Part shown: piece by piece, positions 1,436-22,988 of the stretch
How positions within the stretch are numbered: the first letter of the stretch is position 1
How the letters are laid out: the number at the start of each line of letters is the position of its first letter
Virus record (IMG/VR): IMGVR_UViG_3300027901_000031
Span: 1 to 26,055 of that record
Source: a virus
Direction: 5' to 3' (one strand)
DNA: 26,055 nucleotides
The notes under the pieces: model-generated
Database searches by the model: none
What the model was told of the DNA's origin: nothing
What the model saw: only the letters and a program-made list of their open reading frames with translations
Made by a program: the position numbers and the translations under genes

Positions 1436-1471
1436 TATGCGCCCCCGTTATTTATGCGATAAAACTCCACA

Positions 1472-2343: not shown

Positions 2344-2344
2344 T

Positions 2345-5690: not shown

Positions 5691-5691
5691 C

Positions 5692-5817: not shown

Positions 5818-5828
5818 GACTACCTCCA

Positions 5829-5860
5829 GAAAAAAAAGAGAGAGGGGGGCCGAAGCCCCC
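5829..5860 (-). terminator. Rho-independent terminator after the major capsid gene
   Basis: On the minus strand the sequence reads GGGGGC-TTCG-GCCCCC, a six-pair GC stem with a UUCG tetraloop, followed by CTCTCTC and a run of eight T. It lies 8 nt past the capsid stop and is a textbook intrinsic terminator. Partial read-through would lower expression of the smaller downstream genes relative to capsid. Confidence 0.92.
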
Positions 5861-5868
5861 ATCCCTTA

Positions 5869-7050: not shown

Positions 7051-7061
7051 TTGTATCTACC

Positions 7062-7985: not shown

Positions 7986-8274
7986 TTTCAGCCTCCTTGT
8001 ATTCTAAAATAATCTCTTTAGCTGCCGCCAGTGCCCCTAAAGGCAACGCCTTGGCCAGCATTAAACCGTTTATTTCCCCCGATTTAAACTCTTTCGCAAA
8101 GACACCGCCAAAATCTGCGCTGGCTTTTGGGGCTTCGAGTTGTCGAATATTGATTTGTTTTTGAAGCATTTCGAGATAAAACTCCCAGCCTTCCTGCTTC
8201 GTGAGCGGGTCAAGCATCTCAACCAGCTTTTGTGCTTGCCTAAGCTCTTCAAGTTCTTCATCTGATAATGCCAC
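7966..8274 (-). CDS. Small helical head-module protein, 102 aa (GTG start)
   Basis: The start is GTG 8274 within ATGTG, about four bases after AGGAGG. The overlapping ATG at 8276 is in a different frame that lacks a sensible neighbour fit. The protein is helical and charged (MALSDEELEELRQAQKLVEM...) with a central SADFGGVFAKEFKSGEINGL segment and an Ala-rich helix before an acidic tail. It lies between portal and scaffold and overlaps the scaffold start by 20 nt. Many phages keep a small unannotated gene at this place. A portal- or scaffold-associated role is inferred from position only. Confidence 0.72.
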   Translation of the reverse strand: MALSDEELEELRQAQKLVEMLDPLTKQEGWEFYLEMLQKQINIRQLEAPKASADFGGVFAKEFKSGEINGLMLAKALPLGALAAAKEIILEYKEAENASNEE

Positions 8275-8282
8275 ATAACCTC

Positions 8283-10217: not shown

Positions 10218-11704
10218 TATTCACAAATTCTCCAGTCAGGCAGATCGGGAAACAACTTCTCCTCATCCTCGATCCTGTGATAATCCTCTACATCAATAAT
10301 GCCAGCACCCGGACCTGCAAGGTCCAACGCCATACTTACAGCATCTAGTAGATCGTCATGAGAAACATCAGGATAATCAGAAAACTCCTGAATGAATTCA
10401 ATGTGGGACTTATTGACATGAAGTGCCCCGTTTGAAGCCCGCCCAGTAAGAGCTTGTCGAATTCTATCATTCTTCTTCCTGCGGTCCACTATCTCATGAA
10501 TATAAAAGTGATGGCCAGTTGCAATCATCTTCTGACGCAGAAACCACGCCAGAGTTCGTTGGTAGGCCACACTCTCAACTCCAACCATCCGGGGCCGATA
10601 TTTCAAAGCCATCCTGAAAAACTCAGTACTCAACTGTTCAGGATTCTGATCCTTGGCCAGCGCATAATCCACCAGATAAGCATTACCCTTATGCAATCCA
10701 ATAACTACGATCGCCTGCCAGTCCGTATCGCGTCCCTTTCTTTTCGCTTCTTCCGACATTGGTGGGGCAGGGTCAATTGCCATGTAGGTAGCCATTCCAT
10801 CGGGCAGTATATCCCAGAACTGTAACCACTCGGGGTGGAACGCACTAAGCTCAGGTGCGGTGATCTTACATTCCAACTCTCGATACCAGAGAGATAATTG
10901 ATTACGCGCAATGTGGGCCTCCTTCTGCTTTCGCAGTTCTTCAGTTGTAAATCGTTCTTCCCAACGAGACCTTTGGTCCCTATCAAAACAGCCAAACCTG
11001 TGAGAAACCCAAGTCGGGTCCCTCAAGCAACTTTCAACAAGGTCTTCCTTATGCAGAGGAGTCTGCAAAAGAACCATTTTAGCGTGGGGATTTTCAGTAG
11101 CGGGCACCAAGGATTTATCCAGTGCTCCGAAAAAAAGATTCGAGGTTTTCAACCTCTGCTCAGGGGTAGCCGTATTTTCCTCGTCACAAGGGTCATCTAC
11201 GACAATGAGATCAGGACGATGATCGTCAATGTTAATTCCACGGGTTTGTCCAGTAATACCGAGAGCAAGCACTCTAACCGTATGACCAGCGGTTCCATGT
11301 ATGATCTCAATGTCTTCCCCAGTCCATTTATTTCCCGGCCTAAGCCCAAACGTTTTGGCAAACCCATGATTGTACTCCACAGCTTTTTTCAACCAGTCAA
11401 CGCTTTGAGCAGAATGTTTCTGGGAAGCGCTGACAAACAGTATGGTACGGCTCAATCCATACGCAATCCGCATAGCGGTAAACATTCTTAAAATCGTAGT
11501 TTTAGCACCGCCCCGAAAAACTTCAATAGCCACATGGCGGTTCATAGGATCAACAAGGGTTTCCCAAATCTCCCGGTGGAAAACCGGAGCCCGCATCTTG
11601 GCAGCCTTGGGAAAGAAATACGAAGCGAAAAAAAGAGGGTCAGTAGCGCCTAAAGTAACAGCTTCAGCCGAACTTATTTCATGGTCGGTATATGTGGACA
11701 CCAT
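10217..11704 (-). CDS. terL: Terminase large subunit, 495 aa
   Basis: This is the ATP-driven DNA packaging motor with nuclease activity. The chosen start is ATG 11704 (MVSTYTDHEISS), three bases after GGGAGA. A longer frame to 11794 would run far into the upstream gene. The ATPase domain shows a terminase-style Walker A, FRGGAKTT (63-70), and Walker B with catalytic acidic residue, LIVVDD (166-171). A coupling-motif-like segment (MVLLQTP, 210-216) follows. The RNase H-like nuclease domain shows the acidic residues D311 (MAIDPAP), E377 (VGVESVAYQ) and D451/D454 (HDDLLDAVSMAL). It overlaps the PD-(D/E)XK-like gene by 26 nt and is coupled to the portal gene. Confidence 0.96.
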   Translation of the reverse strand: MVSTYTDHEISSAEAVTLGATDPLFFASYFFPKAAKMRAPVFHREIWETLVDPMNRHVAIEVFRGGAKTTILRMFTAMRIAYGLSRTILFVSASQKHSAQSVDWLKKAVEYNHGFAKTFGLRPGNKWTGEDIEIIHGTAGHTVRVLALGITGQTRGINIDDHRPDLIVVDDPCDEENTATPEQRLKTSNLFFGALDKSLVPATENPHAKMVLLQTPLHKEDLVESCLRDPTWVSHRFGCFDRDQRSRWEERFTTEELRKQKEAHIARNQLSLWYRELECKITAPELSAFHPEWLQFWDILPDGMATYMAIDPAPPMSEEAKRKGRDTDWQAIVVIGLHKGNAYLVDYALAKDQNPEQLSTEFFRMALKYRPRMVGVESVAYQRTLAWFLRQKMIATGHHFYIHEIVDRRKKNDRIRQALTGRASNGALHVNKSHIEFIQEFSDYPDVSHDDLLDAVSMALDLAGPGAGIIDVEDYHRIEDEEKLFPDLPDWRICE

Positions 11705-12212
11705 ACTCTCCCGGAGTAGCCAGATGAATCTCACGGTACAACCGTGGTTGCTGGGGGCATCTAACAGCCGGGTCATACCACTTGGTAACCTCAACCGTAG
11801 CTATCTGCCATAAATCATCAGGCTCACACAAGGCCATCCTGACAACAGGAATATACTTCCAGAACAACTGCCACCAACTATCCGCAGTATGGGCCAGCTT
11901 GGCCTCTATCACATAAAGAATGCCCAGCTCGAAATCAAACAACAATCCGTCAGGCTGGCAAAACCGGGTCTGCCCACCCTTCACCTCCTTGTACACAAAC
12001 CACGGACTCTCCAGATAAAACGGCCCATACTTGGTCTGCAAATAAGAATGGACCCTCCTCTCATACCGTACCCCGGCAGCCTGCGATCCAGTCCTGTACT
12101 CCTTCACCGGTAACCAATCCGGCCTCCTACACAGCCGGGCCCACTCCAGATCACCCACAGGGTGAAATCTAGTCGGGGCTCTCTTCTGGGGACTCTGGCG
12201 ACTCGCCTGCAT
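11679..12212 (-). CDS. PD-(D/E)XK nuclease-like protein between terminase genes, 177 aa
   Basis: The start is ATG 12212, six bases after GGAGG. The gene overlaps terS by 44 nt and terL by 26 nt, so it is built into the packaging operon. Residues consistent with the PD-(D/E)XK core are E51 (VRYERRVHSYL), P87-D88 (CQPDGLLFDF), E103-x-K105 (YVIEAKL) and a following helix with Q115 and Y120 (WWQLFWKY). That spacing matches RecB/VRR-type endonuclease folds. Such an enzyme might act on DNA ends or structures during packaging. It could also be an inactive structural relative. The catalytic set is complete by eye, but the family has not been tested by profile search. Confidence 0.7.
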   Translation of the reverse strand: MQASRQSPQKRAPTRFHPVGDLEWARLCRRPDWLPVKEYRTGSQAAGVRYERRVHSYLQTKYGPFYLESPWFVYKEVKGGQTRFCQPDGLLFDFELGILYVIEAKLAHTADSWWQLFWKYIPVVRMALCEPDDLWQIATVEVTKWYDPAVRCPQQPRLYREIHLATPGEYGVHIYRP

Positions 12213-12675
12213 CCAAGACCTCCATAGGCTTCCTCAGCAGCCGGGCTCGATCCATCAACTCCCGGGCAGCAACCAAGGTATCACTATCTACCTGATTAAT
12301 ATTAATCTGCTGATTAGTCACATGGGTAGCTTCCCCACCCTTCTTCCCGTAAACCCGATCCAGCACCTTATCCACAGCATCCAGAATAAACTTCGGGTCT
12401 TCAGAACTCTCTATCTTCTCAGCCAGCCTCTCAACTCCCACATGAGCCAGCCCATGCAGCTTATCATTCAGCTCCAGCATAGTAGCCGAGAAGACCTTAT
12501 CCTGCCTCTCAGCCAGCCGGGTCTTAAACGCATCTGAATTAACAATAACCCCCAGCCACGTGGAGGAGAGATCAAAAGCAGCGGCACACTCTTTCAGCGT
12601 AGCCGTAGGATGAAGCAACAGCCAGTTCATAATGGCTTCATGCTTAATGTTCCAACTCTTCAGTTCTTGCCCCAT
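12169..12675 (-). CDS. terS: Terminase small subunit, 168 aa
   Basis: The protein is first in the operon, with RBS AAGGA five to six bases before ATG 12675 and promoter-like boxes further upstream. Residues about 10-50 form a helix-turn-helix (HEAIMNWLLLHPTATLKECAAAFDLS, in outline), the DNA-recognition domain usual for TerS. Residues 60-110 are helical and would form the oligomer ring core (ATMLELNDKLHGLAHVGVE...). The tail is Pro/Glu-rich (ESPESPEESPD) and could contact TerL. Position next to terL and this architecture support the call. It would bind the packaging-start site, perhaps in the non-coding DNA just upstream. Confidence 0.87.
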   Translation of the reverse strand: MGQELKSWNIKHEAIMNWLLLHPTATLKECAAAFDLSSTWLGVIVNSDAFKTRLAERQDKVFSATMLELNDKLHGLAHVGVERLAEKIESSEDPKFILDAVDKVLDRVYGKKGGEATHVTNQQININQVDSDTLVAARELMDRARLLRKPMEVLDAGESPESPEESPD

Positions 12676-12708
12676 TAAATTTCCTTATGCGGGTATAGAT
12701 TATCCCGC

Positions 12709-12736
12709 AGTCTAACACCACTTTTTTCACTGTCAA
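12709..12736 (-). promoter_or_regulatory. Sigma70-like promoter before terS
   Basis: On the minus strand TTGACA (12736-12731) is followed after 16 bases by TAGACT (12714-12709), a perfect -35 box and a fair -10 box, about 34 nt before the terS ATG. Immediately downstream (12707-12698) is CGGGATAATC within a GCGGG...CCCGC inverted repeat, where a regulator could bind near the start point. Confidence 0.62.
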
Positions 12737-12752
12737 ACGGGTAAGCAGTATC

Positions 12753-12769
12753 GGGGCGCTTCGCGCCCC
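12753..12769. other. Perfect 7-bp GC stem-loop
   Basis: GGGGCGC-TTC-GCGCCCC forms a seven-pair stem with a three-base loop, upstream of the terS promoter. No T run follows on either strand, so it is not a simple terminator. It may be an RNA structure of transcripts reading through from the right, or a DNA site near the packaging genes. Confidence 0.6.
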
Positions 12770-12805
12770 TCAGAGGGCAAGGCAAAAACACCCATCGCAC
12801 AATTC

Positions 12806-12922
12806 TCACAATGTGACTATATATAGAATGAACCCCGCGAGAACCAGCCAGCAAAAATAATCCAGCCGATCAGGCTTACCCCGATGGTCTATGTAGGCTT
12901 GGATAAGGGCCTTCAGGTTCAT
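12806..12922 (-). CDS. Small single-pass membrane ORF, 38 aa
   Basis: The frame runs from ATG 12922 to TGA 12806. The peptide starts MNLKALIQAYIDHRGKPDRL and ends in one hydrophobic helix, about residues 22-38 (DYFCWLVLAGFILYIVTL). A charged N-terminal half followed by a TM helix at the extreme C-terminus looks like a tail-anchored membrane peptide. The RBS is weak (GGGG close to ATG), which lowers confidence. It sits among stem-loops between the 75-aa gene and terS. A lysis or membrane-modifying role is possible but unsupported. Confidence 0.5.
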   Translation of the reverse strand: MNLKALIQAYIDHRGKPDRLDYFCWLVLAGFILYIVTL

Positions 12923-12946
12923 AACCCCAGTGTGCCATAGGAGAAG

Positions 12947-13003
12947 CCCCGGCCCTAGCCGGGCCCCGCGCAGCGGGGAGTAGCCTTACTTTTTGTAGGG
13001 GCT
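12947..13003 (-). other. Cluster of three consecutive stem-loops (possible structured RNA)
   Basis: Three hairpins follow each other: CCCGGC-CCTA-GCCGGG (12948-12963), CCCCGC-GCA-GCGGGG (12964-12978), and a weaker one with AGCC/GGCT and TAC/GTA pairs around an A/T5 loop (12982-13003). They lie between the hairpin terminator at 13062-13100 and the 38-aa ORF. The whole stretch 12676-13110 holds no larger gene. It may be an untranslated RNA, a leader structure, or part of a packaging (cos/pac) site next to terS. Confidence 0.5.
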
Positions 13004-13061
13004 TTCAAAAATTGGGCTAGCGCCGTGTGTGGTCTTTCATGTCGGATCAGGCACATAAGAA

Positions 13062-13100
13062 GGGGGATGACCGACCGGACGTATCCGATCAGCCACCCCC
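13062..13100 (-). terminator. Long hairpin terminator with UACG loop behind the 75-aa gene
   Basis: On the minus strand GGGGG, a U-A pair with one bulged U, and an 11-pair stem (GGCTGATCGGA against TCCGGTCGGTC) enclose the loop UACG, a UNCG-type tetraloop. Three of the 11 inner pairs are G-U, which pair only in the minus-strand RNA. The 3' flank is CTTCTTATG, a weak U tract. It starts 11 nt after the stop at 13111. A terminator or RNA-stabilising end is likely. Confidence 0.72.
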
Positions 13101-13110
13101 GGGTTGCTAC

Positions 13111-13338
13111 CTAGCTCTTGGGCTTGTAGGCCGTCACTGAAATTACCAGATTCTCGCCTGAACCCAGTACCGCGAAGGTCTTGCCAGCCATGGCACCCTT
13201 GGCCACCGACACGTTCTTACCGCTGCCGGTGTCGCCCAGATTGCCCTTGCCGTCAATCTTCAGGTAAACGTCGCTCCCATCGGTAGCGATTTCCAGATTT
13301 TGACCGGCCGGAGCCCATTTCAGATTTTGCGTTGCCAT
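13111..13338 (-). CDS. Small beta-rich protein, 75 aa
   Basis: The start is ATG 13338 (MATQNLKWAPAGQNLEIATD) behind GAGAGG; a longer open frame to 13401 has no RBS and overlaps the previous gene. The sequence is a string of short strands and Gly/Asp turns, with a middle GSGKNVSVAKGAMAGKTFAVL and an end GENLVISVTAYKPKS. The general layout, with strand, acidic turn, GxSGKN-like loop and closing strand, is seen in many short proteins of phages and bacteria of unknown function. It is second in a two-gene unit with its own promoter and terminator, apart from the head operon. Confidence 0.7.
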   Translation of the reverse strand: MATQNLKWAPAGQNLEIATDGSDVYLKIDGKGNLGDTGSGKNVSVAKGAMAGKTFAVLGSGENLVISVTAYKPKS

Positions 13339-13360
13339 AATTTCCTCTCTTTTCAAGTGT

Positions 13361-13618
13361 TTAAAGGCCAACCGGAAGGTAGATTGCCTTGGCAACCTCA
13401 CGTTCCTGCTGGTATTGCAATACAGCTTGCTCCCGACTGGTAAAACCCGTCAGTAACTCGCCGTAATCCTGCTCCCCAAAGGTCTGCCAGAAAACGCAGC
13501 AGTATTTTCCCCCGGGGAAAACCATCACTTCCAACACACCCGGCACACCATCCCGCTGAATCTCTTCGGAATAGACCGTCCGGGCTCCCATCTCTGCTAA
13601 TACCGTGATCTCTGCCAT
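13361..13618 (-). CDS. Hypothetical protein, 85 aa, first gene of the leftward block
   Basis: The start is ATG 13618 (MAEITVLAEMGARTVYSEEI) five bases after GGGGAGCAG. A longer frame to 13771 would cross the promoter and is rejected. The protein alternates strands (LEVMVFPGGKYCCVFWQTFG) with a C-terminal helix (SREQAVLQYQQEREVAKAIY). There is a Cys pair at CCV. No family is recognised. It lies directly behind the best promoter of the window and is separated from the next gene by only 22 nt, so the two are likely co-transcribed. Confidence 0.68.
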   Translation of the reverse strand: MAEITVLAEMGARTVYSEEIQRDGVPGVLEVMVFPGGKYCCVFWQTFGEQDYGELLTGFTSREQAVLQYQQEREVAKAIYLPVGL

Positions 13619-13648
13619 AACTGCTCCCCTTTGCGATTTGGTGAGCCC

Positions 13649-13677
13649 ATTATGCCCGATTATCCCGAACAAGTCAA
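13649..13677 (-). promoter_or_regulatory. Sigma70-like promoter for the 85-aa/75-aa unit
   Basis: On the minus strand TTGACT (13677-13672), exactly 17 bases, then CATAAT (13654-13649): five of six matches in each box. The -10 lies 30 bases upstream of the ATG at 13618. The spacer contains CGGGATAATC (13667-13658), also found at the terS promoter. Confidence 0.8.
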
Positions 13678-13792
13678 ATTTTTTCGCCCTATATATAGAA
13701 TCGCGCAGGCGTGGCTGCCACCGGACGACTTGACAAACTCCCATCAATACAATTCCCCTCATTTCCCTCACTTCCCCATGTTAACCAATGAA

Positions 13793-13963
13793 AACCCTGA
13801 ACCGAATGGTTCCAAATTCCCAGCCCCATCTTGCTATCTCCCAGCTCTCATATGTACGAAAAAAAATAACCTTACTTTTTATATATATATTCCCATGTAT
13901 TGACACTCACACCAAAATATCAAAAAATACCCCCGGACTTTTAGAACCATTCAATTCAGGGTT
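13793..13963. promoter_or_regulatory. Divergent control region with long inverted repeat
   Basis: Arm 13793-13812 (AACCCTGAACCGAATGGTTC) and arm 13944-13963 (GAACCATTCAATTCAGGGTT) are inverted copies matching at 18 of 20 bases, about 130 bp apart. The left arm also holds its own short palindrome GAACC-GAAT-GGTTC. Between them is AT-rich DNA including an alternating TATATATATA run (13880-13890) and a TTGACA box. The stretch from 13619 to 14008 contains no gene. The layout fits a pair of operators, possibly looped, between the two transcription blocks. Confidence 0.6.
13900..13929 (+). promoter_or_regulatory. Candidate rightward promoter
   Basis: TTGACA at 13900-13905 is a perfect -35 box. At 17-18 bases there is only an A-rich AAAAAT/AAAATA, a poor -10 box, so an activator or a phage-specific factor may be needed. 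It faces the first plus-strand gene and lies between the arms of the inverted repeat. Confidence 0.45.
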
Positions 13964-14008
13964 CTTATGGGTTCACCATTATCAAATCGAAGAGCACAGG
14001 AGCACACC

Positions 14009-14434
14009 ATGTCACAAGCACGAGAAATATCCTCATACCCTCCCCTCTGGTACGAAGTCATAGACCGACTCAAGAGTAGCAACGAACCCTTCATAGTCGG
14101 CCCTCTCTCAATAAGAGAAGCACTGAAACTCCGTCAGAGATGGTACGGATTTCTAAAAGCCCTTGACCGAGCCGGAGACACAGAGGCTGCCCACATGGGT
14201 CGCCAGTCCATCTGTTCAATCCGCAACGAAGAGTGGATAGTAGAACGAAAGACCTACACTTCAACCGCCCTGAAGGTCATGGCGCAAGAAGCCGCCAAGT
14301 CCAGTGAGAAGAAATGGTTAGTCTTTGAGCCCTACCGTACCAGCAGGGAAGCCCAGCTACTCATGGCCGCTCTGAAATATGACACCGCTGCGATTGACGA
14401 ATACATGAGGCCCGTTGACGACCCGGAAGTCTAA
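14009..14434 (+). CDS. Hypothetical early protein, 141 aa
   Basis: The start is ATG 14009 (MSQAREISSYPPLWYEVIDR), seven bases after AGGAG; the longer frame from 13967 would run into the inverted repeat. It looks like a compact alpha/beta protein: a helix with SIREALKLRQRWYGFLKALDRAG, then two strands (SICSIRNEEWIVERKTY), and a C-terminal helical stretch. No catalytic motif is evident. It is the first gene of the rightward block and is followed by a strong terminator, so it may be expressed alone at first. A regulatory or host-takeover role would fit the position, as speculation. Confidence 0.74.
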   Translation: MSQAREISSYPPLWYEVIDRLKSSNEPFIVGPLSIREALKLRQRWYGFLKALDRAGDTEAAHMGRQSICSIRNEEWIVERKTYTSTALKVMAQEAAKSSEKKWLVFEPYRTSREAQLLMAALKYDTAAIDEYMRPVDDPEV

Positions 14435-14465
14435 TCCCATCCCAGCTCACAAGAGCAAAAATCGT

Positions 14466-14505
14466 GCCGCGACTTCGCAAGTTGTTGATTTCGCGGCCTT
14501 TTTTT
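14466..14505 (+). terminator. Rho-independent terminator after first rightward gene
   Basis: GCCGCGA (14466-14472) pairs with TCGCGGC (14491-14497), with an inner ACTT/AAGT stem, and is followed by C and seven T. It sits 31 nt past the stop at 14434. Since further plus-strand genes follow, it probably attenuates rather than ends the early operon, unless a promoter or antitermination acts beyond it. Confidence 0.88.
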
Positions 14506-14582
14506 GCCCATAAAAAATTTTAATGCGCCCCCAAAAAAGTTTCATTGGCCGCGCCGGGGAAATTGGGCGAAAATGCGCCCCG

Positions 14583-14633
14583 CTGGAAGTTTTGCTCCCC
14601 TGACTGTCGGCTACGCCCGGGGGGAGTTTCCAG
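14583..14633 (+). promoter_or_regulatory. Structured 5' leader before the 79-aa gene
   Basis: CTGGAA/TTCCAG and CTCCCC/GGGGAG pair in nested fashion around a 20-base loop, giving a two-part stem 35 nt upstream of the ATG at 14668. A smaller stem GGGCG/CGCCC precedes it (about 14565-14580). The stretch 14506-14667 has no gene. It may control translation or transcription of the next gene. Confidence 0.45.
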
Positions 14634-14667
14634 CCCCCTTATCAACTCACACAACGGAGATGAGTAC

Positions 14668-14907
14668 ATGGCCCCAACAAACGATCATGACCAACAGATG
14701 ATGGCTTTGGAAAGCAAACTCCAAGCCTCCTTCAAATACCTGTCCGCTGGGGGTGCTCTCATCCCCGCCGCAGTAGCCCGTGAGTGGCTTCGTACCAGAG
14801 CCAACCTCTCCATCAAGACCGCGGTAAGCCACTACACGGAAAGTGACATCGACACCGTGGTGGAAAACTGCATCGCCGATCTACGGGCAGATATGTATAT
14901 CGCCTAA
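14668..14907 (+). CDS. Hypothetical helical protein, 79 aa
   Basis: The start is ATG 14668 (MAPTNDHDQQMMALESKLQA), eight bases after GGAG. A longer frame from 14545 overlaps the structured leader and is rejected. The protein is mainly helical: ALESKLQASFKYLSAGGALI, AAVAREWLRTRANLS and a C-terminal DIDTVVENCIADLRADMY. It has no TM or known motif, and an isolated Cys near the end. It is one of a run of small unknown genes in the early block. Confidence 0.66.
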   Translation: MAPTNDHDQQMMALESKLQASFKYLSAGGALIPAAVAREWLRTRANLSIKTAVSHYTESDIDTVVENCIADLRADMYIA

Positions 14908-14977
14908 CTGAGTTGCCATAAGCACAAGGACGTGCGCCTCAACTCTCAACCCAACAAACCAGACGGAGACACAATCC

Positions 14978-15529
14978 ATGCCTGAGGAAATGAAAGTCAC
15001 TCACAAGGTACAAGGCGGCCCCGAGCACATAGTCAGTGACAACGCCCTTGTTCTCTTTAAACAGTTCAGGAGAATGGCTATGCGAGCCCTTGAGAGCAAC
15101 AACACCCTTGGCCCGCCAATGGCATTTTTCATCAATGAGGGAGGTGCTCCTGTCGGTCAAGTCCAGCAGCAAGACGACGACGACGACAAGTACCGCAACC
15201 AAATCCGGACTCTCATCTCGGTCATGAAGCCAACCGCCTACGTGATCCTGAGCGAAGCGTGGGTCAAGACCTTTGAGCAAGGAGAGTCCTTGGACGACGC
15301 CAAGCCAGCCAGTGCCTACCCCGACAAGGAAGAGGTAGTAGTCATGTATCTTGAAACCAAGTTCGGTGAGACTGTCACGGCCTACTGCCCTCTGAATAGA
15401 AATGAAAGCGATGAGTACGAGAATCTCGGGAGCATAAACATAGTTGGCTCTTCGGGTACCCATCAGGAAGCTGCTCTGGGTAATCTCTTCGCTACAAATC
15501 CAGACTCTGTCAACTCTTCTCGGCACTAA
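14978..15529 (+). CDS. Hypothetical protein, 183 aa
   Basis: The start is ATG 14978, nine bases after GGAG. The leader before it contains CTCAACCCAACAAA, akin to the repeated leader found before the SPFH gene. The protein has an alpha/beta pattern: HIVSDNALVLFKQFRRMAMR, a Pro/Gly turn (LGPPMAFFINEGG), an acidic stretch QQQDDDDDK, then TAYVILSEAWVKTF and VVVMYLETKFGETVTAYCPL. The strand order resembles small phage proteins that answer metabolic or nuclease roles, but I recognise no family. The long antisense open frame here is a shadow caused by codon bias. Confidence 0.7.
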   Translation: MPEEMKVTHKVQGGPEHIVSDNALVLFKQFRRMAMRALESNNTLGPPMAFFINEGGAPVGQVQQQDDDDDKYRNQIRTLISVMKPTAYVILSEAWVKTFEQGESLDDAKPASAYPDKEEVVVMYLETKFGETVTAYCPLNRNESDEYENLGSINIVGSSGTHQEAALGNLFATNPDSVNSSRH

Positions 15530-15532
15530 GTG

Positions 15533-15709
15533 ATGAGAGAGCTTCTGGACGCCATGACAAGAGCAGCCACTGAGATGATGCCAGCCAGTGTAAAGACATG
15601 GGGGGCAAGGGCTTGGTTCCTCCTGTGCTTCACGGCTGTCATGGCCTTTTATCCACCCATACTGGCCCTGTGGCTGTCTATGTGGTGGGCACTTAAAGCA
15701 GTCAACTAA
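15533..15709 (+). CDS. Small two-helix membrane protein, 58 aa
   Basis: The frame runs from ATG 15533, three bases after the previous stop, to TAA 15709. A helical N-terminus (MRELLDAMTRAATEMMPASV) precedes a hydrophobic stretch of about 30 residues, 26-55, which is broken by a Pro-Pro pair and Tyr (AFYPPILALW). It is best read as a membrane hairpin or two short TM helices with many Trp. There is no SD of its own close to ATG, so translational coupling to the upstream gene is likely. The next gene follows after 13 nt. It may be part of the membrane group that follows. Confidence 0.62.
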   Translation: MRELLDAMTRAATEMMPASVKTWGARAWFLLCFTAVMAFYPPILALWLSMWWALKAVN

Positions 15710-15947: not shown

Positions 15948-15957
15948 TCAACCCAAC

Positions 15958-15979
15958 TCAACCCAGTAAAGGAGAAAGT
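15958..15979 (+). repeat. Leader repeat copy 1 (before SPFH gene)
   Basis: This 22-nt sequence, beginning TCAACCCAG and holding the RBS AAAGGAGAAAGT, recurs at 17075-17096 with one change (T to C). It forms the RBS region of the SPFH gene. Confidence 0.85.
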
Positions 15980-15981
15980 CT

Positions 15982-16947
15982 ATGTCAATAACACCCAAAG
16001 TGATCCTGACCTTCGCGGTTAGCTGCTTTGTCGTACTGTACCTGCTCATCGGTATTACCAGTATCGAGTTGGGTGAGGTCGGCCTGCAAGTCCGTATGAT
16101 CGGTACTGACCGGGGTAAAACTACCATGCTGCCCCCGGGTACACGTTGGGTAGACCCGACACTCAACGATGTTTTCACCTACGATGCGCGTCTGAAGCAA
16201 TACTCGCTGGAAGATGTTCCTGCCAGTACCAAGGACGGACAGCCCATTCAGGTTGATCTCTCCCTTGAGATGGGTCTTGTAGCCAAGAACATTCCTACGC
16301 TTCACAGGGATATTGGCCGTAGCTATTACGCACAGGTTGTCTACCCGGCTGTTCGTTCGACTCTTCGCAATACCACGACAGAGCAGTTGAGTGACGAAAT
16401 TTACACTGGTGACGGTCGAGCCTATATCCAGAACAAAATGGAGAAGCTCTTACGCGCCAAGCTGGAGCCGCTTGGATTCCGTATCGCAATTAACTTGCGG
16501 GAGATCGTCTTTACCAACTCTGATTTTGTCGCTCTCTTGGAAGATAAGGCCAAGGCACAGCAAACCGTCGAGATCGAAAAGCGCAAGGCAGAAGCGGCTG
16601 TCAATATCGCCAAGAAAGTGGCGAACATAGCCGAAGGTGAGAAGCAGAAAGTAATCAAGGCTGCTGAAGCGGAGAAAGAGAAAATCCGTCTCACCGGTCT
16701 GGGTCAGCGTCTGGCCAAGGAGCAGGAAGCCAAGGGTAATCTGGCTCTTGCGAAGGCCAAGGCTGAGGGTGAGCGTCTGTCAGTACAGGCTTACGGTGAC
16801 GGCGGTACTTATGCATCTGTCAAGTGGGCTGAAAGTATCGGGCCGAAGATGCAGGTCTGGGGTGTCCCGACCGGGGCTCCGGGTACCACAACCCTCATGG
16901 ACGTGAATGGCATTCTTCAGGGTGCTTTCCGGCCTGCTGCAAAGTAA
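15982..16947 (+). CDS. SPFH/band-7 (prohibitin/HflK-like) membrane protein, 321 aa
   Basis: One N-terminal TM helix (about 7-26, KVILTFAVSCFVVLYLLIG) is followed by an SPFH-type beta domain (about 28-185). Its features are SIELGEVGLQVRM, PPGTRWVDP, and the DGQPIQVDLSLEMGL strand pair, which is the band-7 signature arrangement. A long Ala/Glu/Lys coiled coil (about 186-265, DKAKAQQTVEIEKRKAEAAV...) follows and would drive ring or cage assembly. The C-terminus is Gly/Pro-rich. SPFH proteins form large membrane cages that corral lipids or regulate AAA proteases such as FtsH. The RBS is AAAGGAG, five to six bases from ATG 15982. Here it heads a group with an AAA+ ATPase and a VWA/HExxH protein, suggesting a membrane-anchored complex. 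Confidence 0.9.
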   Translation: MSITPKVILTFAVSCFVVLYLLIGITSIELGEVGLQVRMIGTDRGKTTMLPPGTRWVDPTLNDVFTYDARLKQYSLEDVPASTKDGQPIQVDLSLEMGLVAKNIPTLHRDIGRSYYAQVVYPAVRSTLRNTTTEQLSDEIYTGDGRAYIQNKMEKLLRAKLEPLGFRIAINLREIVFTNSDFVALLEDKAKAQQTVEIEKRKAEAAVNIAKKVANIAEGEKQKVIKAAEAEKEKIRLTGLGQRLAKEQEAKGNLALAKAKAEGERLSVQAYGDGGTYASVKWAESIGPKMQVWGVPTGAPGTTTLMDVNGILQGAFRPAAK

Positions 16948-16956
16948 GGAGCCTCT

Positions 16957-17073
16957 ATGTTCAGAACCATAGCGTTAATCGCCCTTGTACTACTGTTGGT
17001 GATCGTTATGTCTCCCGCTCTCATGGAGTGGGGCAAGCGATTGGCCCAGTACATCAAGGGTATGTTCAAGTAA
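16957..17073 (+). CDS. Small single-pass membrane protein, 38 aa, paired with SPFH gene
   Basis: ATG 16957 follows AAGGAG at six bases and the frame ends TAA 17073. The peptide is one hydrophobic helix (about 4-21, TIALIALVLLLVIVMSPAL) with a basic amphipathic tail (MEWGKRLAQYIKGMFK). It begins nine bases after the SPFH stop and precedes leader repeat copy 2, so the two genes form a unit. Small TM peptides often modulate SPFH or FtsH-type complexes; that role is inferred here. Confidence 0.75.
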   Translation: MFRTIALIALVLLLVIVMSPALMEWGKRLAQYIKGMFK

Positions 17074-17074
17074 G

Positions 17075-17096
17075 TCAACCCAGCAAAGGAGAAAGT
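17075..17096 (+). repeat. Leader repeat copy 2 (before AAA+ gene)
   Basis: This copy matches 15958-15979 at 21 of 22 bases. The gene it precedes has a longer RBS-to-ATG distance (11 bases), and the repeat is followed by GTGTAGTAATG, which places a GTG-TAG start-stop pair before the true ATG. Confidence 0.85.
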
Positions 17097-17102
17097 GTAG
17101 TA

Positions 17103-17912
17103 ATGAAATCTACTGTCAAGAAAGAGTTGGAGTCCTTGTCCAACGATGTCAAGGAACACTTCGAGGTTAAAATCCCCGATCATCGGTCTGCCATGCCGGA
17201 GATCAACGAGTGGGATTTGATTAACTCGATTCTGCCCAAGACTCGCCGGGTACTCCTGTACGGGCCTCCGGGCACCGGCAAGACTCATGCGGCCACGTAT
17301 CTCGATACTGAAGGCAAGACGGTGTATTCCCTGACTCTCACGGAAGCTACGCCCGATGCCGAGATTCGCGGTCACTTTGTCCCGGCTGGTGACGGTAAGT
17401 TCAAGTGGATGGACGGCCCGGCTATCAAGGCATGGAAAGAAGGCTGCCCTCTGGTTATCAATGAAATCAACCGGGGTAGCCCTGAAGCCCAGTCCTTCCT
17501 GTACGTGCTCTTGGACGATCCCAAGACTGCTCGTATTACGCTCCCTACCGGCGAGACTGTCACTCCACAAGAGGGCTTTCGCGTAGTGGCTACCATGAAT
17601 GGCCGACCGGATGAGCTGCCGGAAGCACTGGCTGATCGTTTCCCTGTCTCCGTTGAGGTGATGCAGACGAACCCTCACGCCCTTACCCAGCTTCCTACAG
17701 AGCTGCGTAAATTGGCGCGGGATACGTCCAACATTGTCGATGAAGAGCGTCGCATTACTATCCGTAGCTGGTTGGCCTTCGCTGATCTTCTGCGTATTGG
17801 AAGTGACGTAGACAAGGCGGGCAAGGCGGTCTTTAACGCGAAGTGGGAAGATTTACGTGTGGCTGTGCTTGTAGCTATGCAACCTTCCCCGGACAAGACC
17901 CGGGCCAAGTAA
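17103..17912 (+). CDS. MoxR/CbbQ-type AAA+ ATPase, 269 aa
   Basis: The start is ATG 17103 (MKSTVKKELESLSNDVKEHF); the longer frame from 17028 would overlap the small TM gene. Motifs: Walker A GPPGTGKT (54-61), Walker B LVINEINR (117-124), sensor 1 VVATMNGR (161-168) with N166, and arginine finger region ALADRF (R179). The ATP-dependent ring ATPase of this clade (MoxR, CbbQ, CobS, NorQ) works with a VWA-domain partner to remodel or insert cofactors into target proteins. The VWA partner is encoded directly downstream. A helical lid with RITIRSWLAFADLLR follows sensor 1. The preserved motif set indicates an active ATPase. Confidence 0.93.
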   Translation: MKSTVKKELESLSNDVKEHFEVKIPDHRSAMPEINEWDLINSILPKTRRVLLYGPPGTGKTHAATYLDTEGKTVYSLTLTEATPDAEIRGHFVPAGDGKFKWMDGPAIKAWKEGCPLVINEINRGSPEAQSFLYVLLDDPKTARITLPTGETVTPQEGFRVVATMNGRPDELPEALADRFPVSVEVMQTNPHALTQLPTELRKLARDTSNIVDEERRITIRSWLAFADLLRIGSDVDKAGKAVFNAKWEDLRVAVLVAMQPSPDKTRAK

Positions 17913-17957
17913 GGTAATTAGTGGGGGTAGGGAATGGGCCTTGCCCCCCAAGTTACC
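17913..17957 (+). promoter_or_regulatory. Stem-loop leader between AAA+ and VWA genes
   Basis: GGTAA (17913-17917) pairs with TTACC (17953-17957), and GGGGG (17923-17927) with CCCCC (17944-17948). The structure starts right after the AAA+ stop and ends about six bases before the AAAGGAG of the next reading frame. No T run follows, so it looks more like RNA stabilisation or translational control than a terminator. Confidence 0.5.
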
Positions 17958-17976
17958 AAGCAAAGGAGATATTTTT

Positions 17977-18006
17977 ATGCCAACAGAGAAGAGAGGTGGT
18001 CACTAA
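17977..18006 (+). CDS. Nine-residue upstream ORF (MPTEKRGGH) coupled to the VWA gene
   Basis: ATG 17977 has the best RBS here (AAAGGAG, nine bases). The frame encodes MPTEKRGGH, and its TAA shares a base with the VWA ATG (TAATG). It may be a leader peptide that sets VWA translation by coupling, though it could be a chance start. Confidence 0.42.
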   Translation: MPTEKRGGH

Positions 18007-19592
18007 TGGCTAAGAAACCGTTTTATCCTGAGGGTCACGACAATCAAACCGAGGTCGGACATTTCTACCCTGAGGTTATAGCCCCGGATATTAAATCTGG
18101 AGACAAACAGTGGGAGATTCATGAACCTGAGACTTGTCCCCGGGTAAACGCTGAACAGCGGATTGCCGAGATACCTAGAGGCAGGAATAACATAGATTAT
18201 TTCTCCAGAGTGCATGAATTGGCTCATGTAAAACTGTCTCCCCTGAGAAAACCGACCGATGTTAACGATCTTATTCTCAATTCTGTTGAGGATATGCGGG
18301 TGAATGGTTGGGCTACCCGGGTAGCAAGGGTACCTCTTAAGGTTTACAAGGAAGATGAGACTGCTGAACATTACCAGATACGGGCTAAAGAGCAGGCTAA
18401 GGCTATTAGTACCTTCGTTCAATTGCCTCCGTACTTGCAGTTTTTGTCTGCCTTGTCTGCCAAGGACAGTAATTTTGAAGAGGTCTTGAAACCTTTCCAG
18501 TCCAGAGACGTTACAGACTGTATAGACCGGGCACATAAACTTCTGTGGGCAGATGGTGTTCCGACTTTCAGTCGGGTACATGAGCTGGCTCGCTGGCTTC
18601 AGTTTTTGATAGCTGAAGAGGAAGAAGATATGCAGCAGGTAGCGGTAGCCCTTCAAGAGGCTCTCGACGGTATCCCGGTACGGAAGGTCGGTGAAGGTGA
18701 GCTTGAGGACGGTGACGGCCCACCCAACGCGAAGGCTCAGGGTGCTGTCCAAGGTGACGGTACGAGTAAGGGGGATTCTGACGAAAGTGATCCGACAGAG
18801 CTTCACGTGAATCCTTACTCTGTTCCAAAGGTGCCGGTGAATAGCATTCACTATAACAAGTTCAAGGTACCCTCTAGTTATCTCAAGAAATTCTACAGTA
18901 CCTTGGGAGATCGGGTTGGTAAGTTAATCACGGACAAGGTAGACGGTAAGCCGTCTACCCAGAGTGCTGAGTACTATCCGTGGAATGACATGAGGATTCT
19001 CATGCCGGATATGCCGCATCCTGCCTTGCCCCCCAAGGACAAAGCTATGCGTAACAAGTTCAACGCTACTGACAGGGGTTCAGTACCAACTCATATGCAC
19101 CGCTATCATGTGGATTTGGCTATCTTTGGACGAAAGACCAAGAAACAGGAAGGTATCAGTATCTTGGTTGATACTTCTGGTTCCATGTCTCTGGATGAAG
19201 AAGATATGACCCGGATATTGACTGAATGTCCGGCAGCTACAGTAGCAAGTTATTCCGGGCCTTGTAGTGGGAGTCGGGGAACGCTGATTATTCTGGCCCG
19301 GGGTAAACGAAGAGTTGCTCTTGACAATGTACCTTCTGCTGGTGGTTGTAACACTATCGACCTTCCGGCTCTTCAGTGGTTGGCTCGACAACCCGGCCCT
19401 CGTTACTGGCTGTCAGACGGTGGTGTAACTGGTAAGGATAATATGGGTAGTGCGCGTAACTCGCGACAAGTCTGGGATTTGTTGAAACAGGCTGACATCT
19501 TTCAGGTTTTTGACGTTGATGAGTTGATTAAAGTCATGACAGGTAAACAGAAACTGAAACCTATTCGCCTGTACAAACTTGACTGGACGTAA
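18006..19592 (+). CDS. VWA-domain protein with HELAH metallopeptidase-like motif, 528 aa (partner of MoxR-type ATPase)
   Basis: The start is ATG 18006 (MAKKPFYPEGHDN) by TAATG coupling. The longer frame from 17934 passes through the stem-loop. Residues 62-100 hold a zinc-peptidase-like motif, RVHELAHVKLSP (HExxH, 70-74), followed at 92-98 by NSVEDMR, a spacing seen in CobT-like and related VWA proteins. A helical region (110-225) and an acidic Gly-rich linker (228-265) follow. The C-terminal VWA domain shows the MIDAS motif ILVDTSGSM (D389-x-S-x-S393), a MIDAS threonine near T450 (GGCNT) and a closing D471 (LSDGG). VWA proteins bring substrates to MoxR-type ATPases. I read the pair as an ATP-driven remodeller with possible protease activity. 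Confidence 0.86.
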   Translation: MAKKPFYPEGHDNQTEVGHFYPEVIAPDIKSGDKQWEIHEPETCPRVNAEQRIAEIPRGRNNIDYFSRVHELAHVKLSPLRKPTDVNDLILNSVEDMRVNGWATRVARVPLKVYKEDETAEHYQIRAKEQAKAISTFVQLPPYLQFLSALSAKDSNFEEVLKPFQSRDVTDCIDRAHKLLWADGVPTFSRVHELARWLQFLIAEEEEDMQQVAVALQEALDGIPVRKVGEGELEDGDGPPNAKAQGAVQGDGTSKGDSDESDPTELHVNPYSVPKVPVNSIHYNKFKVPSSYLKKFYSTLGDRVGKLITDKVDGKPSTQSAEYYPWNDMRILMPDMPHPALPPKDKAMRNKFNATDRGSVPTHMHRYHVDLAIFGRKTKKQEGISILVDTSGSMSLDEEDMTRILTECPAATVASYSGPCSGSRGTLIILARGKRRVALDNVPSAGGCNTIDLPALQWLARQPGPRYWLSDGGVTGKDNMGSARNSRQVWDLLKQADIFQVFDVDELIKVMTGKQKLKPIRLYKLDWT

Positions 19593-19597
19593 GATGT

Positions 19598-19867
19598 ATG
19601 GCGGGTATGAAGTGTGACTGTTCTGTCTACACTGAATCCCACCCTTTACTGTGGGGTAGTTGTACTGGTGAGCCACTTCATCAATCAATGTTTGAGCAGG
19701 CTGTTGGTTGTATGGAGTGTCCTCACCGGGGGCAACACTTGCAGCGGGTTAAAGGCGAGAAGGGAAACTCAGTAGTAATTAAACGAACGTGCAAAGCTCG
19801 GGATGGAAGAGACTGTCCCACTGTGAAGCACCTAGCTCAGGAGAAATATAGAGATGAAAATGTTTGA
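19598..19867 (+). CDS. Cysteine-rich small protein, 89 aa
   Basis: ATG 19598 lies six bases past the VWA stop, without a clear SD. Seven cysteines occur: CDC near residue 6, C22, CMEC at 38-41, C65 and C73, plus several histidines. This favours a small zinc-binding or Fe-S fold. The rest is basic (RGQHLQRVKGEKG, VVIKRTCKARDGRD). The gene overlaps the start of the two-TM protein by 14 nt, and so belongs to the same operon. The family is not recognised. It could be an adaptor or DNA/RNA-binding partner. Confidence 0.64.
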   Translation: MAGMKCDCSVYTESHPLLWGSCTGEPLHQSMFEQAVGCMECPHRGQHLQRVKGEKGNSVVIKRTCKARDGRDCPTVKHLAQEKYRDENV

Positions 19868-20843
19868 AGATATGACAGCGATTTCTTTTATCCTTTACGG
19901 TGGTATAGCCGTTTTGTTTGGTGTGCTTGTGGGGACTAGTAATTTTGAGTCTGGCGCAGACCCGGCTACTGCTGTAGTTACGGGTATTCTGTATGCGCTT
20001 ACTCTTTTCGCTCTGAATATGGCCTTTCACCACTTCTGGCTGTGGGTTTTCTCCAAGAAGAAGAGGAAAGGTTCAGGCTCCAAGATACCACAGGAATTGG
20101 ATGCTATGTTGGAACGGTTACAGAATCTTCCCGGGGTGAAAGTTACGTCTTACCAGTTTAACGAACGGGATGCCGGATTAGCTCATGCTGCTACCTTGGC
20201 TCATGTCATGTTGGCCAAAGCTATGGCACAGATTGAGAAACATGGTTATGACGAAGAGGCGTTTCGTAAGGCTGATATTGAAGTGGATTTAGAGTGGTTG
20301 ACCAAGCTAGCTGCTGGTTTCATGGTTCTCTACACTCATCTTGTTACAACTGATGAGGGTTTCAAGAGTTCTATGGATGGTGCCCTTAAAATACTCATAG
20401 AGGGGTTGAGAGCAGATGCGCCTGACTCAAGAGCAGCTAAGGCTTTTATGGCTAATGCCAGTGAGATTCAGGTGTTACATGAGATGCCTAAAAAGACTCA
20501 GGAGGGATTCTTGAAGAGGAATGTCGCCATGACAATCGATACCTATGGGGGCTTGCAGAAACTCATGCGTGATGTTGAGGGTGGCAAACGGAAGGCTTCC
20601 AAGATTGACCCGGAGAAATTGAAGGAACACTTCAAAGAGATGGGTCTGCCGGATGAGTTGGCAGATACTGTTGCTACCAGCATAGAGGAGGAACAAAAGA
20701 AAGAGAAACGAAAGAAGGCTAAAAAGGATAAGGCTAAGGACAAGGATGAGCCTGTTGTCGTGGAGTTTGAGCCGGATGAGGTTACTAAGGACGGTTGGGA
20801 GGTAAAGGCTCGTGGCAAGAAAGCAGTCAACGATGATAAGTAG
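19854..20843 (+). CDS. Two-TM membrane protein with long charged cytoplasmic domain, 329 aa
   Basis: The start is ATG 19854, ten bases after AGGAG; ATG 19860 is also possible. Two N-terminal TM helices, about 9-28 (AISFILYGGIAVLFGVLVGT) and 40-66, are followed by a KKKRKGSGSK positive-inside stretch. The remainder (about 76-329) would be cytoplasmic: a helical domain rich in Ala, Met and Glu with LAHAATLAHVMLAKAMAQIEK, then a Lys/Glu-rich low-complexity segment (EEEQKKEKRKKAKKDKAKDK) and an acidic end. No family is recognised. As the last member of the SPFH-AAA-VWA run it could anchor the complex to the membrane or bind its substrate. Confidence 0.74.
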   Translation: MKMFEDMTAISFILYGGIAVLFGVLVGTSNFESGADPATAVVTGILYALTLFALNMAFHHFWLWVFSKKKRKGSGSKIPQELDAMLERLQNLPGVKVTSYQFNERDAGLAHAATLAHVMLAKAMAQIEKHGYDEEAFRKADIEVDLEWLTKLAAGFMVLYTHLVTTDEGFKSSMDGALKILIEGLRADAPDSRAAKAFMANASEIQVLHEMPKKTQEGFLKRNVAMTIDTYGGLQKLMRDVEGGKRKASKIDPEKLKEHFKEMGLPDELADTVATSIEEEQKKEKRKKAKKDKAKDKDEPVVVEFEPDEVTKDGWEVKARGKKAVNDDK

Positions 20844-21252
20844 AAAGATTACTTGGTATCGGTTAGGGGGTAAGGACGGGCATACGCCTGTCCCTACCCC
20901 GTTAGAGGGTGTTGACTGGAATACCCATCGTGTTGCTCAGACTCAATGTTGGGTACTGTGGAGATGGTGGTGCCCAATCCCGGTTTATATACGCTTGTCT
21001 ACGGTATTTTTAGCCTTGGATCATTCATTTGGCCCCGGGCCTTCCTGTATCGGGCCGCGCGTCTTTGAGACAATGGCTTTTTACCCTTCCACTTTTAGTG
21101 AGCACCCTTACCACCAAGCGGAGTTCCGTACCTGTACGTGGGAGCAGGCTGTTCGGGCTCATAAGTTGATTCTGTCCTATTTACGTTGGGGGCTGATACC
21201 TCCTGTGGAGAATATTACCCTCACCCTGATAGAGGAGAGTGTTCATGATTGA
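20833..21252 (+). CDS. Widespread phage hypothetical protein with DHSFG...ETM motif, 139 aa
   Basis: The start is ATG 20833 (MISRKITWYRLGGKDGHTPV), overlapping the previous stop by 11 nt. The core FLALDHSFGPGPSCIGPRVF followed by ETMAFY and later TWEQAVRAHKLIL matches a very common phage family of unknown function, recalled as 'TvFLGlDHsFG.GpPvlfETMvF...R..tweeA..gH'. It is soluble and rich in Trp, His and Pro. The pattern of conserved Asp, His and Glu could bind metal, but no activity is known to me. This member is typical in length and motif order. Confidence 0.78.
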   Translation: MISRKITWYRLGGKDGHTPVPTPLEGVDWNTHRVAQTQCWVLWRWWCPIPVYIRLSTVFLALDHSFGPGPSCIGPRVFETMAFYPSTFSEHPYHQAEFRTCTWEQAVRAHKLILSYLRWGLIPPVENITLTLIEESVHD

Positions 21253-21589
21253 CAAGATTGCAAAAGAGGAAATGCCTGTCGGTACAAGGTTGCTGGTAAA
21301 CCTTGAGCTGTGGGTGATTATTACCATTCTTAACATGGCTGATTTTTGGGCCTCCCGTATTGCTTTCTCCCGGGGGGCTTATGAGTCTAATCCCCTCATG
21401 GACAAGCTGATTGCTCACTACGGTATTGACGGACTGTTGGTCTGGAAGATGCTGTTTATGACAACCCTGCTTTTTGGGGTGGTAGCTGTTCCTAAACGCT
21501 GGTTCACCTACGCCTTGCTTGGGGTAGCTTTGGTCTATGGTGTGCTCTTTGGCTGGCACGCTTGGGGTCTTGGGAGGTTTGAATGGTAA
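21245..21589 (+). CDS. Integral membrane protein, 114 aa (DUF5658-like)
   Basis: The start is ATG 21245, seven bases after GGAG. A GTG two codons earlier (21239) is possible. Three hydrophobic segments are seen, near residues 16-40, 62-82 and 88-107. The first ends NMADFWASRI and is followed by AYESNPLMDKLI. The 'N..D...T...G..E.NP.m' arrangement between first and second helix matches the DUF5658 family as I recall it. The function is unknown. It overlaps the upstream gene by eight and the next gene by seven nt. Confidence 0.74.
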   Translation: MIDKIAKEEMPVGTRLLVNLELWVIITILNMADFWASRIAFSRGAYESNPLMDKLIAHYGIDGLLVWKMLFMTTLLFGVVAVPKRWFTYALLGVALVYGVLFGWHAWGLGRFEW

Positions 21590-22170: not shown

Positions 22171-22764
22171 ATGATGTTTAAACTTGAGAGCCATATCACC
22201 GGCAAGGTATATGATCTTACACAAGAGAATATGCAGGCCATGATTGAAACAATCGAACGCCTACAGGCAGAGATTACCAAGCTAATGCTAACTCCATGCA
22301 AGTTCCATGCTGGCGGTGTGTGCGCCATCAGTCAGGAGAATCAGCGCCTACAGGCAGAGCTAATCGAAGCGAAGGAAGATGCTTCCTCATGGCAAAAGCA
22401 ATCTGATAAGGATGTGGACTTGTTGAATAAGGAAATTGAAAAGAACGCCAAGCTGCGAGAGGCTTTGAAAGAAGCAGAAGAACAAGGACTGAAAGAGCCA
22501 GATAAGATGGACAGGGTATTATCCATTTTACATGAAGCACTAGCACACAGTATGACTGATAAATGGATACCAGTAAGTGAGAGGTTGCCGGAACCGTATC
22601 GTTCGGTTGAACTATTTAGGCCAGAAGAAGGGGCTGGAGAAGATCAAGTTTTGATAGGGTATTATAGAAAATTACAAAAAGGCTTTTATTCAGATGAGCT
22701 TGAAGAAATTATTGATGGCGTAACACACTGGATGCCACTACCTGAACCACCGGAGAAGGAATGA
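22171..22764 (+). CDS. Coiled-coil protein with C-terminal DUF551 domain, 197 aa
   Basis: The RBS AAGGAG precedes ATG 22171. Residues about 15-110 are coiled coil (RLQAEITKLML, RLQAELIEAKEDASS, KLREALKEAEEQG). The C-terminal domain (131-194) shows DUF551 features: KWIPVSERLPEP, a DQVLIGYYRK strand, and the closing VTHWMPLPEPP. DUF551 occurs in many phage and prophage accessory proteins of unknown function. The 3' half uses more A/T-ending codons than neighbours, pointing to a separate origin. A 15-nt direct repeat (22258-22272, 22345-22359) encodes RLQAE twice, and a 17-nt segment recurs in the next gene. Confidence 0.82.
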   Translation: MMFKLESHITGKVYDLTQENMQAMIETIERLQAEITKLMLTPCKFHAGGVCAISQENQRLQAELIEAKEDASSWQKQSDKDVDLLNKEIEKNAKLREALKEAEEQGLKEPDKMDRVLSILHEALAHSMTDKWIPVSERLPEPYRSVELFRPEEGAGEDQVLIGYYRKLQKGFYSDELEEIIDGVTHWMPLPEPPEKE

Positions 22765-22988
22765 TGGACTGTTCACGATGTGGAAAACTACAGGCCGCAC
22801 TTGAGTTTGCTAATTTTGTAGCTGACGATCAGAGAGCAAGGAAGGCCGAGCTGCGAGAGGCTTTGGTTGGTGTTTTGCAGGTAGCTTGTGACGGTGATGA
22901 GTGTTCTACGCTTGAAGAATATCAAGAGCTGTTAAATAAGATTGCTGGTATTTCAGTTAAAGTACTGGCAGAACAGGAGGATGAGTGA
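22761..22988 (+). CDS. Small helical protein with N-terminal CxxC, 75 aa
   Basis: The start at 22761 is in an ATGA overlap. An N-terminal C-S-R-C motif at residues 4-7 and two further Cys (ACDGDEC) could bind zinc. The rest is helical (LQAALEFANFVADDQRARKA, LLNKIAGISVKVLAEQEDE). The segment ELREAL shares a 17-nt identity with KLREAL of the DUF551 protein, so part may have come by recombination between neighbours. The function is unknown. Confidence 0.62.
   Translation: MMDCSRCGKLQAALEFANFVADDQRARKAELREALVGVLQVACDGDECSTLEEYQELLNKIAGISVKVLAEQEDE

Follow-up and report, generated by a model that had tools for sequence, protein, structure and literature searches.

A MoxR-type AAA+ ATPase and VWA-domain protein form a conserved gene pair, probably a NorQD-like chaperone, next to a local SPFH gene in a tailed-phage contig

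Pairs of a MoxR-type AAA+ ATPase and a VWA-domain protein are common in environmental phages, and the two published readings of their role, virion assembly and cobalamin synthesis, disagree. In group 2.2 jumbo phages, a MoxR AAA+ gene accompanies a gene for a VWA protein with an N-terminal metallopeptidase-like domain, and a chaperone that processes structural proteins has been proposed; the same study cites a MoxR-vWA role in tail assembly of Acidianus two-tailed virus (PMC7824862). Viral AAA-VWA pairs have also been named CobST, with cyanophage cobT usually misannotated as a peptidase (PMC8651126). Among cellular pairs, NorQ–NorD inserts iron into nitric oxide reductase; PMC13036017 describes a VWA domain that binds the AAA+ ring via a finger, a MIDAS site proposed as the contact with the target, and a rotation, powered by ATP, that remodels this target, with both midasin and NorQ described as partners of VWA domains. 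DUF2201 proteins combine an HExxH domain with a VWA-like domain and are encoded near an AAA gene. The pair described here is of the kind already published for phages, of which the earlier note on this DNA was unaware. Its likeness to the jumbo-phage proteins is one of described architecture rather than of direct comparison with the named proteins, and it differs from group 2.2 in that its near-complete sister records measure only ~47–50 kb and in that HExxH has been lost in some relatives.

The DNA analyzed here (the window) represents one IMG/VR virus record of 26,055 bases. Genes from position 1 to ~13.4 kb are on the minus strand and include those for the terminase, portal, and major head protein (assigned by PHROGs) and for a metallophosphoesterase, while plus-strand genes run from ~13.97 kb to the end, the last ones encoding an exonuclease and a Sak4-like ATPase; the region is a tailed-phage contig. 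A second contig, 99.7% identical over window positions 220–14979, stops there; this other assembly thus backs the left part of the window but not the six genes of interest. It ends where the gene at 14978 starts, ~1 kb before the SPFH gene, a point that could mark a variable region. All six open reading frames that had been proposed to form a membrane cassette are present on the plus strand (15982–20843), separated by 9, 29, 93, 5, and −14 nt in that order, and most are preceded by a plausible ribosome-binding site. While these genes are indeed consecutive, they do not represent a bounded unit, since same-strand genes, including membrane protein genes, continue on both sides within a plus-strand array covering at least 13.9–26 kb; upstream of the SPFH gene is a gene for a 59-aa protein with a predicted hydrophobic transmembrane (TM) segment (15530–15709, plus strand), and downstream of the sixth gene is one for a membrane protein matching Pfam DUF5658 (21239–21589, plus strand). 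A search against Rfam yielded no match, and promoter and terminator scans gave about as many hits as expected from shuffled sequence.

The ATPase gene (P0003; 17103..17912, plus strand) encodes a 269-aa MoxR-type AAA+ protein (Pfam AAA_5, E = 1.9e-19). The nearest PHROG is phrog_16448, annotated "ATPase" (1.7e-37), followed by phrog_249, CobS, annotated "porphyrin biosynthesis" (3.3e-23); among solved structures searched by sequence, the protein matched midasin (1.2e-35) and NorQ (1.6e-9). Its motifs had been described as complete, and Walker A (GPPGTGKT), sensor 1 (N166), R179, and R221 are present; in Walker B (VINEI), however, the expected Asp is an Asn (N120). This position is occupied by N in 54 and by D in 21 of 75 family members, and, as judged from this alignment, Asn is the usual residue in the family. 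Single-sequence searches for close relatives in the phage and IMG/VR collections, carried out with the ATPase, the VWA protein, the SPFH protein, and the two-TM protein P0006, yielded mostly nothing, with distant CobS-like ATPases (for P0003) and distant phage SPFH proteins (for P0001) matched at looser limits; alignments, rather than single-protein queries, were needed to find the AAA and VWA families. An AAA profile matched only distant MoxR proteins in genome_contigs (37% identity for the best by E-value), and no cellular source was found in that set. In Microbacterium phage Zooman (L004, 4701–9122), a related AAA-ATPase gene directly precedes rIIA-like and rIIB-like genes.

The downstream gene (P0004; 18006..19592, plus strand) encodes a 528-aa protein with an N-terminal zincin-like motif and a C-terminal VWA domain, as supported by its PHROG, its relatives, and an AlphaFold2 model. 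The protein and its relatives belong to phrog_33218, annotated as of unknown function, an annotation that can now be refined to likely VWA partner of ATPases of the phrog_16448 type. The MIDAS residues (D389, S391, S393, and D471, in the pattern DxSxS...D) are invariant in all 45 aligned relatives. The N-terminal motif (HExxHxKxSP...E; HELAHVKLSP at 70–79, with HELAH at 70–74, plus E95 and R98) is less constant, with H70 retained in 37, H74 in 38, E95 in 42, and R98 in 41 of these 45 sequences; the HExxH that had been read from the window is therefore present here but not universal, being kept in about 37/45 relatives, and the VWA protein of one sister phage lacks it while retaining EDMR. Conservation across this alignment thus points to an adaptor (MIDAS) site that is always kept and a zincin site that is sometimes lost.

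In the AlphaFold2 model, the VWA domain is confident (pLDDT about 90) and the N-terminal region fairly confident, with HExxH and E95 placed on successive helices. The best structural matches of the VWA domain are to NorD in NorQD complexes (Z = 9.6 and 9.5; for the former, rmsd 3.7 over 149 aligned residues at 9% identity), ahead of the next VWA fold (Z = 8.6) by only about one Z unit, such that the resemblance could be a generic one. When modeled by itself, the N-terminal domain gave weak matches to ArdC (Z = 4.1), to the minigluzincins jannalysin (3.8) and abylysin (3.2), and to PprI (3.1), with unrelated helical proteins scoring nearly as high; a zincin fold is no more than suggested. Foldseek retrieved nothing significant with this N-terminal domain, and the VWA profile had no meaningful match among the sequences of solved structures. 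NorD is thus the closest solved VWA fold, and NorQ the closest solved ATPase by sequence after midasin, and the same division of labor would be expected; the accessible part of PMC13036017, however, does not mention an HExxH domain in NorD. An assignment of P0004 to the DUF2201 metallopeptidase-VWA proteins was also considered and rejected, as neither PF13203 nor PF09967 matched the protein or any of the 45 aligned members, and the DUF2201 profile match to the window VWA family was very weak (probability 1.4%). One distant terminase relative (L098, 317–1489, minus strand) does carry a DUF2201 metallopeptidase-VWA gene near an AAA_5 gene, as if another HExxH-VWA family occupied the same slot.

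To compare gene order, terminase relatives were taken from IMG/VR, and 50 whole records were searched with the VWA protein, AAA_5, and Band_7. Two near relatives that include the early region, G004 (record L096, 49.5 kb) and G006 (record L097, 46.7 kb), hold both the AAA and the VWA gene, adjacent in G004 and separated by several genes in G006; their ATPases, those of the two nearest pair-bearing phages, are 54% and 50% identical to that of the window. Homologues of the gene at window positions 13967–14434 precede the pair in both phages, which makes the locus comparable even though the genes between differ; these are the only two sister phages with the pair at a comparable locus. Alignment-based scans of viral contigs added a broader view, with 72 AAA loci and 12 VWA loci. 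Linkage was assessed for AAA loci with a score >100 bits and ≥900 nt of downstream sequence, and all of these (68/68) showed a VWA gene downstream on the same strand, at a distance of ≤150 nt in 64. The MoxR-VWA partnership recognized in the earlier note is thus borne out, and the window carries a MoxR-class AAA+ gene (AAA_5 match) adjoining a gene for a protein with a VWA fold. In 22 phage loci (L135, 16767–17102, and 21 others), the pair is followed, at a distance of ~7 kb downstream, by a gene for a small SET-domain protein.

The AAA and VWA genes simply overlap in most relatives. In the window, the interval between them contains a strong predicted RNA hairpin (17913..17957, plus strand; MFE −29.8 kcal/mol, z = −3.6 for 17905–17980), followed by a ribosome-binding site, AAAGGAG, and a 9-codon open reading frame (MPTEKRGGH) with a stop codon that overlaps the VWA start (TAATG; span to 18008). 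This hairpin and leader reading frame may provide for a regulated or coupled translation start of the VWA gene.

The fifth gene (19598..19867, plus strand) encodes an 89-aa protein with seven Cys. A homologue comes immediately after the VWA gene in L097 (E = 1e-7), and one in L096 (E = 1.2e-4) overlaps the end of that phage's VWA gene, such that this gene follows the VWA gene in 3/3 phages of the clade; a search of viral_contigs with the protein gave a single match, the L097 record. We regard this Cys-rich protein as a probable accessory of the pair, binding zinc, within this phage clade. The sixth gene (P0006; 19854..20843, plus strand) encodes a 329-aa protein with two hydrophobic segments and a charged helical tail. 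It is an orphan, with no relatives found in L096, L097, or viral_contigs, and its membership in the AAA/VWA module is not supported by these comparisons. The six genes could, in principle, be unrelated neighbors of which none work together, since they belong to a longer run of co-directional genes and three of the six are without conserved linkage; such a chance neighborhood is extremely improbable overall, as it is contradicted for the AAA and VWA genes by their fixed linkage and is also at odds with the constant position of the Cys-rich gene after the VWA gene. On present comparative evidence, an arrangement beyond chance is indicated for the AAA-VWA pair but not for the six-gene set.

The published reading of such pairs as an auxiliary cobaltochelatase, in which CobS- and CobT-like proteins would borrow the host CobN to raise the cobalamin supply, draws on the match of the ATPase to phrog_249 and on the CobST naming of viral AAA-VWA pairs, to which the window pair is similar in composition. 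In addition, the window family profile aligns with the cyanophage "peptidase" in the N-terminal region around a shared HExxH(x4)P...EDxR (hhalign E = 3.5e-4, probability 37%) and, with a weaker link, with the CobT-like protein of phage DSL-LC01; comparisons of the single P0004 sequence with the VWA proteins of DSL-LC01 and GMA2 were not significant. We nevertheless consider a chelatase role very unlikely here. Neither window protein matched a curated CobS or CobT model, with no NCBIfam equivalog, no CobT Pfam model, and the putative chelatase model TIGR02442 hit only below its threshold; a search of 34 pair-bearing records turned up no CobN (which the host might provide), and just 2/34 had a ribonucleotide reductase large chain. 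A cobalamin role is thus not supported for this locus.

A virion-assembly chaperone that processes structural proteins, the other published reading, would be consistent with the architecture shared with the jumbo-phage pairs and with the Acidianus two-tailed virus precedent (PMC7824862). Three observations make it an unlikely explanation, however: the terminase gene is on the strand opposite to the pair in 23/28 loci, as in the window; the pair is located near the exonuclease and Sak4-like genes; and HExxH has been lost in about 8/45 relatives, one of them the sister phage G004. The constancy of the MIDAS, the partial loss of the zincin site, and the terminase-opposite strand in most loci together offer a concrete way to choose between the two published readings.

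We therefore favor a third reading, which we judge to be probable: the core of the locus would be a phage-specific, NorQD-like MoxR AAA+/VWA chaperone pair, and the SPFH and 38-aa genes a separate acquired unit. The chaperone reading follows from the VWA fold being nearest to NorD and from the resemblance of the ATPase to midasin and NorQ. The ATPase would form a hexamer on which the VWA protein docks as in NorQ–NorD; Mg2+ in the MIDAS would grip an acidic residue of the target protein, and ATP-driven twisting would remodel it. The N-terminal zincin-like domain, with its motif intact here, would probably contribute limited proteolysis or the handling of a metal. The Cys-rich protein may serve as a metal-binding accessory in the clade of the window phage. 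The target would most likely be a protein of the host or the phage that is engaged early or in the middle of infection, a timing suggested by strand rather than by expression, since the pair and the head and packaging genes are on divergent arms. A remodeling chaperone of early or middle infection is the most economical reading of the pair.

The SPFH gene (P0001; 15982..16947, plus strand) encodes a 321-aa protein with an N-terminal TM segment and a Band_7 domain (Pfam E = 2.7e-21; 76.9 bits against a gathering score of 23.6), which also matched phrog_200 (3.9e-28) and, in the PDB, prohibitin-2 (2.5e-5). An identity as HflK or HflC was rejected, with NCBIfam equivalog scores of 14.3 against 159.4 and 13.3 against 134.4 bits. 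Like other phage SPFH proteins (phrog_200; the Bruynoghevirus SPFH protein, PMC8540360), it is a Band_7 protein of the kind that carries an N-terminal membrane anchor or lipoprotein signal. Directly after it is a gene for a 38-aa single-TM peptide (16957..17073, plus strand) with one strong hydrophobic segment (5–23) and no family match in Pfam, PHROGs, or NCBIfam. In four other SPFH phages, the SPFH gene is immediately preceded, rather than followed, by one or two genes for very small TM proteins (L215, 3729–3985; L217, 2588–2992; L218, 2737–2955; L216, 2684–2992); such tiny proteins may be membrane partners of phage SPFH proteins.

The linkage of SPFH to the pair could not be extended beyond the window phage. 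No Band_7 match above the cut-off was found in 50, 50, and 29 non-control records related by AAA/VWA or terminase, while three SPFH-bearing phages used as positive controls exceeded it under the same search; many of these records are fragments, so that a single negative record carries little weight, and the argument rests on absence throughout, including in several that are near-complete as judged by length. Two records showed sub-threshold Band_7 matches, both inside ~3,480-aa frames that are not SPFH genes. The SPFH alignment was too diverse for profile scanning, and four proteobacterial genomes yielded one weak SPFH match. Conversely, the known SPFH phages inspected have no AAA/VWA genes annotated around their SPFH genes. 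Within the records searched, the single system of SPFH protein, small peptide, and AAA/VWA pair put forward in the earlier note runs into the refuting condition that the note itself had set, as AAA and VWA occur in relatives without SPFH; gene order is conserved for the pair and for the Cys-rich gene after it, but not for SPFH. By gene content, the SPFH gene beside the pair is a local addition, seen in the window phage only, on one incomplete contig.

The SPFH and 38-aa genes are bracketed by a 28-nt direct repeat, the copies of which are 89% identical, 1,117 nt apart, and placed just before the start codons of the SPFH gene (15955..15982, plus strand; AACTCAACCCAGTAAAGGAGAAAGTCTA) and the ATPase gene (17072..17099, plus strand). 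Its 21-nt core is present twice in the window but did not appear in any of 100 shuffles. Considered alongside the absence of SPFH elsewhere, this bracketing suggests an insertion before the ATPase gene, consistent with SPFH and its 38-aa TM neighbor being a separate membrane-scaffold unit acquired beside the pair; alternatively, the duplicated leader could be a regulatory site common to both genes rather than the scar of an insertion. By composition, the SPFH gene is similar to the ATPase gene and thus not marked as foreign, and a step occurs between the ATPase and VWA genes.

An integrated membrane system, in which an SPFH ring, joined by the 38-aa and two-TM proteins, provides a platform that localizes or regulates the MoxR-VWA machine (e.g., for remodeling or shielding of membrane complexes or proteases of the host), would explain the tight same-strand spacing (the first two gaps) and the near-identical leaders, which suggest co-regulation; in addition, an interaction with the inner membrane is reported for the MoxR-VWA pair RavA-ViaA (PMC9489729). 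We regard it as quite unlikely, as no pair-bearing relative has SPFH above the cut-off, P0006 is without detectable relatives, and PADLOC gave no convincing match; a joint SPFH–MoxR–VWA system is, as far as gene content goes, without comparative support. A more specific version, in which an SPFH cage and its tiny TM partner would bring a chaperone of the MoxR-VWA-zincin type to the inner membrane of the host, where a membrane complex would be opened, cut, or shielded, is highly doubtful; if true, it would be the first known phage system of that kind. A role in anti-phage defence was set aside, as matches to the PADLOC library, which covers described systems, are short, weak stretches of AAA motif only.

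A second 28-nt direct repeat (89%) was identified further downstream, at window positions 22440–22467 and 22838–22865, inside two neighboring coding regions. This repeat encodes KLREAL and ELREAL and perhaps represents a partial gene duplication.
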